Positions 40,429 through 43,461 of a DNA stretch of 64,000 nucleotides are shown here, one piece after another (position 1 is the stretch's first letter; each line of letters opens with the position of its first letter). A program made the position numbers and the translations under genes. The stretch is taken from NCBI GenBank assembly GCA_016287755.1, contig JAEEWT010000004.1, forward strand, positions 1-64,000, in the 5' to 3' direction. Under the pieces are notes generated by a model. That model had not been told where the DNA came from and did not search any database. It worked only from the letters and a program-made list of their open reading frames with translations. Origin of the DNA: Prevotella sp. (lineage in GTDB: Bacteria > Bacteroidota > Bacteroidia > Bacteroidales > Bacteroidaceae).

Positions 40429-41868
40429 ATGGCAGATTCTAATTTGCAGCGCAGTGTGACCACTGCTACCGCCAGAAGACTGGCGACCACTACCAAGACA
40501 GCCCCGCAGATGGGCTCGATCACTCCAAGACTGTTGTTGAAACTCCTGCCTTGGGTGCAGGTGTCTGGTGGAACGTTCCGTGTGAACCGCACGAAGGTGG
40601 AACTTCGCAAGAACGACCGCCTGCCTATCCAGTATGTGGATGGCGTACCCTCGTTTACAGCGAAGAACCTGAAGGCTATCCCGCTGTTCTCGGAATTCGA
40701 TGACGAGATCTTGAACCGTCTGATTAGCTCTTTCGAGACGAAGGAGGTTGATGTTGACAACCTGTTCGTGGAGGAAGGTAAGGACAAGCAGCGCTTCTTT
40801 ATCGTGGCGAGCGGTCAGGCTGAGGTAATCAGCAAGGGTCCTCATGGTGAAGAACTACGGATAGCACTGCTGGGCGACGGTGAGTACTTCGGCGAGGCCG
40901 ACCTGCTGGACGAGCAGGAATCGACGGTGAGCGTCCGTGCCATCACGCCAACGGTGTTCCTCGGTCTGAAACTGAAGGAACTCATCAAGTTCATCAAAGA
41001 GGTGCCTGATTTCCGCGAGATCTTCAACAAGGCGGTTGACAAGCAGCTGCGCCTGAAGGCTTCGGTGAATGACAACGGTGAGAAGCACATCGATCTGGTG
41101 AGCGGTCATGAGGAGGATAATATCATTCCCGAGACCTATATCGACTATGAGGAGAATCCTACGGAGTATCCGCTGAATACACTGCAGACCGTTGTACGTG
41201 TGCATACCCGTGTGAGCGATCTTTACAATAATCCTTATAACCAGTTGGAAGAGCAGTTACGCCTGTCGATCGAGAGTATCAAGGAACGTCAGGAGTGGGA
41301 GCTCATCAACAATAAGAAGTTCGGCTTACTGGCTGCTGCCAATCCTGCCTATCGTATCACTACGCGCTATGGTGCGCCCACGCCTGATGATCTCGACGAG
41401 CTGTTGAGTCTTGTATGGAAGGAACCTGCTTTCTTCATAGCCCATCCGCGTGCCATCGCTGCTTTTGAGCGTGAGTGTACATGGCGCGGTGTACCGCCTG
41501 TAACCACCGATCTCTTCGGTACGAAGGTGATCTTGTGGCGCGGTGTACCCCTGATACCATCCGACAAGGTGGAGGTGGAAGGACAGTACCTGACTGGTCG
41601 TGGTGTTGGTACAACGAAGATCATCCTTGTGCGTACCGGTGAGCAGAACCAAGGTGTTGTCGGTCTGCATCAGAGTGGCATCCCAGGTGAGATTGCTCCG
41701 TCGCTCTCCGCCCGTCTGATGGGTCTTGACAAGTTCGGTGTGGCCTCTTACCTGCTCACGAAATACTTCTCACTGGCTGCTCTCACCGATGACGCCATCG
41801 CCGTGTTGGAGAATGTGGAAGTGGGATATTATCACGACTATCAGCATAGAAACAAGGTGGAGAAGTAA
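40429..41868 (+). CDS. Family 2 encapsulin shell protein (SrpI-like) with inserted cyclic-nucleotide-binding-like domain
   Basis: SrpI-like [113 protein letters not shown]; CNB-like insert [16 protein letters not shown]. Confidence 0.93.
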   Translation: [479 protein letters not shown]

Positions 41869-41919
41869 AAAGACTCTCCACCAATCCCTCCCTGCGTGGG
41901 AGGGGAGTAAATACCTTTT

Positions 41920-43461
41920 TTGAATATGATAGATATACAGAATATTGACGGTTACGGCATTCAAGACCCTGGCTTCGATTTATTGCGACAAGTGGCTCAA
42001 AAGTACTGTCCGGAAGAGTTGCAGCAGGTACGAAAGGAGGTTGTTCCCGACGAAGCGCTCGATCTCTCGTCGCTGACTGGTATTCTCCAGTCTTTTGCTA
42101 GTGCGGATCTGAAATCCCCTTCTTGGGCACCAAGCACACTCCCATCCCATCCAGGGGAGGGACAAGGGGAAGGGTCTTCTCTTGGTATCCGTCCCTTCGG
42201 AGAGCGTGAGCTTTCCTCTCTTCATTATGAGGAGACTGATACGCTGAACTCGGAGCAGATCAAGAAGGATTTCCCCATACTGCGGCAGAAGGTGAACGGG
42301 CATGACCTCGTATGGCTCGACAACGGGGCCACCACACAGAAACCGTTGCAGGTGATCGACAAGATCTCGGATTACTATAAGAACTACAATTCGAATATTC
42401 ACCGTGGAGCCCACACGCTGGCTGCCCGTGCTACCGATGCCTACGAGGAGGCTCGCGAAAAGGTGCAACGCTTTATCAATGCTGCCACCAGCGAGGAGAT
42501 CATCTTCGTACGGGGTACCACCGAGGGTATCAACCTGGTGGCGCAGACCTACGGACGACAGTTCCTCACTCCTGGTGACGAGGTCATCGTATCAGAGTTG
42601 GATCATCATGCCAATATCGTGCCCTGGCAGCAGGTGTGCCATGAGAAAGGCTGTACGCTGAAAGCGATTCCTACTGATAAGAACGGCGACCTGGTGCTCT
42701 CGGAGTTCGAACGACTGATCACCCCGCGTACGCGCTTTGTCAGCGTAGGACATGTGAACAACACCTACGGTACCATCAACGATGTGAAGCGAATCATCGA
42801 TATTGCCCATGGACATCATATCCCTGTACTTATCGACGGCGCACAGTCGATTGCCCATACACCTGTTGACGTACAGCAGCTGGGAGCCGACTTCTTCGTG
42901 TTCTCTGGTCATAAGATCTATGGACCCAATGGTATCGGCGTGGTGTATGGACGCAAGGATCTGCTCGATAAGATGCAACCGTGGCAGGGCGGTGGTAACA
43001 TGATCAAGGATGTGACCATCGAACGTACGGAGTATAACGTACCACCTGCTCGTTTCGAGGCTGGCACGCCCAATGTGGCCGATGCCATCGGACTTGGTGC
43101 CGCTTTGGATTATGTGAGTCATCTCGGTATCCGAAATATTGAGCACCATGAGCACCAACTGACGGAATATGCCCGTGAGCAGCTTTCCCAGATCAAGGGA
43201 CTTACACTTATAGGAAATCCCAAGAACCGTGTGTCGGTGGTGAGCTTCGTCCTCGATGGTATTCCTGTGCCTGAGACAGGAACACTGCTCGACAAGGAGG
43301 GTATCGCCGTGCGTGCCGGTCATCACTGTGCCCAGCCTGCTCTTCGAGCCCTCGGCTATGAGATGAGCGTTCGTCCTACCTTCGCTCTGTACAATACCCG
43401 TGAGGACGTGGACCGACTGGTGATAGCGGTGAGGAAGATCATAGGTGATAACAAACGATGA
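41920..43461 (+). CDS. Class II (SufS-like) cysteine desulfurase with ~110-aa N-terminal extension, probable encapsulin cargo
   Basis: PLP Lys FFVFSGHKIYGPNG; catalytic RAGHHCAQP; domain starts near IKKDFPILRQKVNGHDLVWLDNGATTQKP. Confidence 0.93.
   Translation: MNMIDIQNIDGYGIQDPGFDLLRQVAQKYCPEELQQVRKEVVPDEALDLSSLTGILQSFASADLKSPSWAPSTLPSHPGEGQGEGSSLGIRPFGERELSSLHYEETDTLNSEQIKKDFPILRQKVNGHDLVWLDNGATTQKPLQVIDKISDYYKNYNSNIHRGAHTLAARATDAYEEAREKVQRFINAATSEEIIFVRGTTEGINLVAQTYGRQFLTPGDEVIVSELDHHANIVPWQQVCHEKGCTLKAIPTDKNGDLVLSEFERLITPRTRFVSVGHVNNTYGTINDVKRIIDIAHGHHIPVLIDGAQSIAHTPVDVQQLGADFFVFSGHKIYGPNGIGVVYGRKDLLDKMQPWQGGGNMIKDVTIERTEYNVPPARFEAGTPNVADAIGLGAALDYVSHLGIRNIEHHEHQLTEYAREQLSQIKGLTLIGNPKNRVSVVSFVLDGIPVPETGTLLDKEGIAVRAGHHCAQPALRALGYEMSVRPTFALYNTREDVDRLVIAVRKIIGDNKR

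Follow-up and report, generated by a model that had tools for sequence, protein, structure and literature searches.

We describe a putative sulfur island on a contig of a rumen-type Prevotella sp. (GCA_016287755.1, contig JAEEWT010000004.1), of which positions 1 to 64,000 of the forward strand, a stretch of 64,000 nucleotides called the window below, were analysed. At its centre the gene for an encapsulin shell protein, Enc2B, is preceded by genes for the sulfur-transfer proteins DsrE2 and TusA and followed by one for a SufS-type cysteine desulfurase (CD). Around these four lie genes for a ThiS-like carrier (HcyS), an E1-type adenylyltransferase (HcyF), a JAB/JAMM metalloprotease (HcyD) and a divergent O-acetylhomoserine sulfhydrylase (MetY). 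Judged from the sequences, it is fairly probable that the encapsulated CD passes sulfur through DsrE2 and TusA to HcyS, which as a thiocarboxylate would serve a Wolinella-type MetY in the synthesis of homocysteine, with the shell and its cargo in the place of sulfite reductase. Gene identities, catalytic residues, the masked tail of HcyS, gene neighbourhoods, co-occurrence and the alternative sulfite reductase are seen in the sequences, and they are set out below.

The 479-amino-acid shell protein matches NF041163 (encap_f2b) with 563 bits (cut-off 400) and PF19307 with 376 bits (cut-off 22.8). By phmmer, its residues 7-466 match the solved Family 2B shell 9bje with an E-value of 1.9e-115, and 9bhu and 9bix are matched likewise. 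The first-pass annotation had taken this open reading frame for an encapsulin, which is borne out; the search of models and structures of Family 2 encapsulins that it had suggested returned full-length matches, to subfamily 2B. Its label of SrpI-type, on the other hand, has to be given up. A PF00027 domain (residues 113-190, 54 bits) separates two shell segments, and against SrpI (6x8m) phmmer aligned the protein in two pieces on either side of this insert. The presence of this cyclic nucleoside monophosphate (cNMP)-type insert, whose absence defines SrpI/2A, rules out the 2A assignment, and CD too, with 719 bits, fails to reach the 800 bits required by NF041166, the curated model for 2A cargo. 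By sequence the shell is Family 2B, with HK97-type halves and a cNMP-type domain in the E-loop; the HK97 fold is assigned through homology to the solved shells. Two AlphaFold runs on the shell protein gave a predicted local distance difference test score (pLDDT) of 50 and 49, with confidence for the insert domain alone. Control of the shell by cyclic AMP was considered and is disfavoured: in a hand alignment the phosphate-binding Arg of CRP corresponds to Ser165, which is nearly invariant (21 members), and Family 2B cNMP-like domains have been reported without cyclic nucleotide binding (PMC12407261). Chance is excluded as the origin of the shell and CD matches because of their E-values and of conservation in more than 100 loci.

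The next open reading frame (41920-43461, with the ATG at 41926 the more likely start) had been called a cysteine desulfurase, and TIGR01979 agrees with 559 bits (cut-off 475). Its catalytic Cys468 and the Lys330 that binds pyridoxal phosphate are invariant (74 loci). The catalytic domain begins near residue 110, behind a low-complexity N-terminal extension of about 105 amino acids. At the start of CD, FDLLRQVAQKYCPEE can be aligned with a LARLANEFFS-like sequence, the first of the stretches conserved in 2A cargo (PMC8049743). Further along, 49 of the 66 Bacteroidales copies counted carry GFGIGIPE. With its gene adjoining that of the shell, CD is likely to be the encapsulin cargo. At 42100-42220 the linker of the window's CD contains a GC-rich stretch, APSTLPSHPGEGQGEGSSLGIRPFGE, at the GFGIGIPE site of most relatives; it occurs also, and longer, in the nearest relative (L050), and a search across the window found a single copy only. 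A small insertion may have changed a cargo-binding motif here. A second SufS-type CD, 51% identical, is encoded on another contig of the same genome.

The DsrE, TusA, ThiS, JAB and MetY genes that the first-pass annotation had listed at the flanks are all present by profile matches, so that its five families were right; the E1 gene and the PF00027 insert had been missed. The ThiS-like carrier, E1, JAB protease and divergent MetY together make up the gene set known from protein-thiocarboxylate methionine synthesis, and it is by analogy to this pathway that the names HcyS, HcyF and HcyD are used. The window's HcyS ends in GGGALIEN, which masks its Gly-Gly end. FLYFMGGG with a short tail is found in nearly all Bacteroidales copies, and three ThiS copies from Chlorobia-type loci end at GGG without a tail. 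A masked tail fits a need for HcyD, which by its intact JAMM residues (Glu22, His80, His82, Ser90 and Asp93, invariant in 61 loci) would be an active JAB protease. PF00899 is the sole domain of HcyF, in which Cys187 and two CxxC pairs are invariant (57 loci); its start is listed as a TTG and the true start may differ. Cys149 of DsrE2 and Cys41-Pro42 of TusA are each invariant in 64 loci and Lys204 of MetY is likewise invariant; across the island proteins, catalytic residues are invariant in 54-74 loci. The closest solved relative of MetY is 3ri6, the Wolinella enzyme, with 350 bits against 261 for the next (a gap of 89 bits), and by this closeness it is probably of the thiocarboxylate-using type. 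The earlier idea of a sulfur island thus stands as far as the encapsulin, the likely CD cargo and a probable dedicated relay are concerned. It had not recognised in ThiS, E1, JAB and MetY a known pathway, by which the relay gains a specific endpoint.

Conservation was followed in two samples of draft genomes that are related to one another: a genus sample, with stretches of 20 kb at most around each of 40 encapsulin genes from the window's GTDB genus, and a named sample, the 42 out of 80 named GTDB loci that have 5 kb or more to either side, which shares genomes with the first. The order DsrE2-TusA-Enc2B-CD on one strand is nearly constant in about 100 Bacteroidales loci. TusA lies immediately upstream of the encapsulin in all 40 genus loci, DsrE2 upstream of TusA in 39 and CD downstream of the shell in 38, and both CD misses are on contigs that end. 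MetY is found within about 5-10 kb of the encapsulin in 35 of the 40, and within about 10 kb HcyS and HcyF are found in 33 each (some of the HcyF matches may be more distant relatives among the E1 proteins) and HcyD in 30. In the named sample, mostly rumen or gut Prevotella assemblies including Segatella baroniae B14 and Xylanibacter ruminicola D31d, DsrE2, TusA and CD occur in 42/42, MetY in 41/42, HcyF and HcyD in 39/42 and HcyS in 38/42.

The carrier module stays beside DsrE2-TusA-Enc2B-CD across at least four gene orders. In the window's order HcyD-HcyF-HcyS is divergent upstream and MetY lies downstream; a second order has MetY upstream and HcyS-HcyF-HcyD behind CD, and a third has HcyS-HcyF-HcyD upstream on the same strand. 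The fourth, HcyS-HcyF-DsrE2-TusA-HcyD-Enc-CD in one direction, is present in other families and in one locus of the same genus (L067, L119, L120, L147, L149). Since membership is kept through rearrangement, a functional link rather than an inherited neighbourhood is indicated. In a tree of HcyF most encapsulin-linked copies of the window's family fall into one clade (96/89) with gene orders mixed within it, and the copies linked to sulfite reductase and those of the single-direction type lie outside; many inner branches are weak. In a further locus (L121), from the same taxonomic order, TusA-HcyD-Enc-CD is preceded on the other strand by a second, divergent CD (49% identical), and HcyS-HcyF-DsrE2 is located behind CD.

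Co-occurrence was scored in 200 congeneric genomes, with a Fisher test that ignores kinship. Encapsulin is present in 44 genomes (three as fragments), HcyD in 51 and sulfite reductase in 16. HcyD was found in 39 of the 44 encapsulin genomes as against 12 of the 156 others (p 2e-25, kinship ignored), and 33 of the 39 encapsulin-HcyD pairs are at most 12 kb apart. DsrE2 at 76% identity or above is almost confined to encapsulin genomes, and weaker matches lie mostly within open frames of 720-870 amino acids. Seven of the 12 HcyD genomes without encapsulin carry sulfite reductase. In the other five HcyD is at or near a contig end, with DsrE2 or TusA running off the end in L108 and L110, so the encapsulin may be missing from those assemblies. 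All 16 sulfite reductase genomes carry HcyD, and no sulfite reductase protein (PF01077) was found in the window's genome.

The alternative arrangement is seen in a locus without encapsulin (L104), where HcyS-HcyF-HcyD is followed by a sulfite reductase of 796 amino acids (L104:10362-12752) and then by siroheme-type and sulfate-activation genes. The last 67 residues of this sulfite reductase are a TusA domain (PF01206, 74 bits). The three Hcy genes lead directly into sulfite reductase here and at four further loci, and the TusA query matches the corresponding place in L102, L106, L111 and L113. Whichever version of the module is considered, TusA either adjoins the sulfur source or is fused with it. 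The conserved neighbourhood suggests that the shell is a sulfur source able to substitute for sulfate reduction, and we lean, if only slightly, towards the view that sulfite reductase and the encapsulated CD, each with its own TusA, interchangeably charge HcyS for homocysteine synthesis.

In the mechanism that we infer, from the assembly of the shell and its loading with CD through every transfer step to the direction of flux, a Family 2B shell would hold the SufS-type CD, which would take sulfur off cysteine as a persulfide, and DsrE2 and TusA would hand this sulfur onward. HcyD would trim the C-terminal tail of HcyS, HcyF would adenylate the Gly-Gly end thus uncovered, and sulfur from the relay would convert it to a thiocarboxylate. 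The Wolinella-type MetY could then join the HcyS-bound sulfur to O-acetylhomoserine, and HcyD would release homocysteine, the precursor of methionine. Encapsulin, CD, DsrE2 and TusA would thus fill the slot of sulfite reductase in the Wolinella pathway, and homocysteine would be made from cysteine without passing through cystathionine, perhaps with sulfur kept inside the shell.

A number of observations weigh against this scheme. How a relay protein would reach an enclosed CD is one difficulty: a Streptomyces 2B shell is reported to have pores at its two-fold axes, 14 by 60 angstrom in size and covered in part by the insert domain (PMC12407261), which small persulfides could pass and a folded TusA without docking probably could not. 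The linker of the window's CD is altered where most relatives carry GFGIGIPE. One shell locus (L047) has no flanking Hcy genes, and replacement of sulfite reductase is not exclusive, as 9 of the 16 sulfite reductase genomes also carry encapsulin. On chromosome 2 of Segatella baroniae B14 (G184:C2) the HcySFD genes are beside sulfite reductase, 46 kb from the encapsulin. Two loci (L115, L120) pair HcyS with a cysteine-synthase-like gene, and the acceptor may be O-acetylserine there.

Both modules are thus seen in one genome in G184:C2 (positions 370287 and 416108), where DsrE2-TusA-Enc-CD is without Hcy genes. L115:1270-13240 has Enc2B-CD, DsrE2, TusA, HcyS and the cysteine-synthase-like gene beside genes that by eye look nitrogenase-like; no HcyF or HcyD was found near this encapsulin locus. 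Outside the genus pattern, locus L125 (family f136, probably Chlorobiaceae) has in one run genes for a hexapeptide acetyltransferase, Enc2B, a CD of 724 amino acids with a long N-terminus, a Cys/Met enzyme, ThiS, ThiG, a radical-SAM protein and ThiF, all identified in L125 itself. Loci of this kind in the same family are L123 and L127-L130. Which ThiS-type carrier the shell-CD pair serves may differ from group to group.

A simple relay would hardly call for a shell, and this gives weight to the idea of a sulfur store, in which CD, at times of ample cysteine, loads zero-valent sulfur into the shell, and DsrE2 and TusA withdraw it later for HcyS, MetY and CysK. In 2024 a Family 2A encapsulin was reportedly found to store elemental sulfur. 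Sulfur starvation induces SrpI-type shells, and encapsulation raises CD activity (PMC8049743); the cysteine-synthase-like genes next to HcyS at L115 and L120 would suit re-use. However, the shell here is 2B rather than 2A, 2B-CD systems seem to be uncharacterised so far, and sequence does not separate storage from relay. Storage is compatible with the relay to HcyS and would then be the main job; we hold it tentatively, as somewhat doubtful, yet as a serious companion hypothesis.

It could also be that the genes only share a sulfur regulon, CD serving iron-sulfur, tRNA or cofactor sulfuration through TusA while HcySFD and MetY use free sulfide. TusA commonly takes part in tRNA thiolation and in further pathways (PMC11302665), Chlorobia place Enc2B-CD beside ThiG, the radical-SAM enzyme and ThiF instead, and the window's canonical MetY (46423-47715) and its CysK (27270-28217) could use sulfide. 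We regard this as unlikely in view of the order in which HcyS and HcyF are interleaved with DsrE2, TusA, HcyD, encapsulin and CD, the strong co-occurrence of encapsulin and HcyD and the near confinement of this DsrE2 to encapsulin genomes; the second SufS-type CD could do the iron-sulfur work. In mycobacteria CysO, CysM and Mec provide a carrier-based synthesis of cysteine, and a route to cysteine instead of homocysteine would suit the cysteine-synthase-like gene that immediately precedes HcyS in L120 and L115. This is very improbable here: unless sulfur is stored, nothing would be gained by turning cysteine into cysteine, the constant partner in the genus is a Wolinella-type MetY (35/40), and the E1 has no rhodanese domain, as in methionine-type operons (PMC1779556).

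Positions of the genes discussed, in window coordinates
Feature	Position	Strand	Length	Evidence
HcyD-like JAB/JAMM metalloprotease	37856..38257	-		PF14464 87 bits
HcyF-like E1/MoeB-ThiF adenylyltransferase	38284..39099	-		PF00899 273 bits; no rhodanese domain
HcyS-like sulfur carrier, ThiS fold	39103..39324	-		TIGR01683 63 bits; ends FLYFMGGG-ALIEN
DsrE2-type sulfur carrier	39508..39993	+		PF13686 138 bits; Cys149
TusA sulfur-transfer protein, CP motif	40053..40331	+		PF01206 75 bits; Cys41-Pro42
Enc2B, Family 2B encapsulin shell protein	40429..41868	+	479 aa	NF041163, PF19307, PF00027, 9bje match
SufS-type cysteine desulfurase, likely cargo	41926..43461	+		TIGR01979; Cys468, Lys330
Divergent MetY (O-acetylhomoserine sulfhydrylase), probable Wolinella thiocarboxylate-using type	43472..44704	+		best match 3ri6
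LuxR-type regulator, candidate island regulator	45649..46290	-		PF00196 53 bits; 16/40 genus loci
Canonical sulfide-type MetY, O-acetylhomoserine/serine sulfhydrylase	46423..47715	-		TIGR01326 639 bits, cut-off 495

Among the other genes of the window, the canonical MetY is an island neighbour in 6 of the 40 genus loci. The LuxR-type regulator recurs beside MetY and the Hcy genes, and a relative 31-35% identical lies near some Chlorobia loci. An apparently secreted protein of 310 amino acids without a Pfam match (36583-37515) is found near the island in 14 of the 40. No riboswitch or other RNA matched Rfam in 36000-48700 up to an E-value of 1.

The pairing of shell and CD is already known; the finding here is its genomic coupling to DsrE2, TusA, HcySFD and MetY. 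The first-pass annotation had not known the system to be characterised, which holds for this coupling, of which no description was found, and fails for the 2B-CD operons, of which Andreas and Giessen catalogued 199 in 9 phyla in 2021 (PMC8346489). In the portion of that catalogue considered here the likeness extends to the shell subfamily and to the class of putative cargo, whose disordered N-terminus is unannotated, whereas the accessory genes named for CD operons are serine acetyltransferase and rhodanese, with no link to DsrE2/TusA or HcySFD-MetY (PMC8346489). The SrpI-CyD system of Family 2A (Nichols et al. 2021, PMC8049743) is alike in its HK97-type domains, an N-terminally targeted CD and a sulfur context; it differs in having no cNMP-type insert, and its second cargo motif YYFL corresponds to GFGIGIPE in most Bacteroidales copies. 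The Streptomyces 2B shells (9bje, 9bhu, 9bix and the two-component shell of S. lydicus) match over the full length and have the cNMP-like insert in common, but their putative cargo is another one, and the Prevotella island has one shell gene (PMC12407261). With the Wolinella pathway the island shares a masked carrier C-terminus, an E1 without rhodanese domain, a JAB protease, a 3ri6-type MetY and a TusA/SirA protein nearby. Krishnamoorthy and Begley reportedly described this HcyS/HcyF/HcyD/MetY pathway of protein-thiocarboxylate methionine synthesis in Wolinella succinogenes in 2011, work that PMC5764234 cites. There the sulfur comes from sulfate via sulfite reductase, and here, as proposed, from an encapsulated CD. 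Among the operons listed by Iyer et al. 2006, class 4e includes sulfite reductase and a SirA/TusA protein (PMC1779556), and in the open-access literature no paper was found tying encapsulins to TusA.

In S. elongatus, knockouts of the encapsulated-CD system gave no growth defect (PMC8049743). The genome context here names an acceptor chain of DsrE2, TusA, HcyS and MetY, and the purpose of an encapsulated CD thus becomes testable in a defined pathway. Protein organelles and ubiquitin-like sulfur carriers are two fields which are joined in this island, and no paper connecting them was found in the open literature. If the proposed route is true, it would assign encapsulin-CD systems a defined endpoint in metabolism and would let bacteria reach methionine from cysteine without cystathionine. 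The island is carried by about one in five of the species sampled in the Prevotella-type genus, and it may shape the supply of sulfur amino acids in ruminants.

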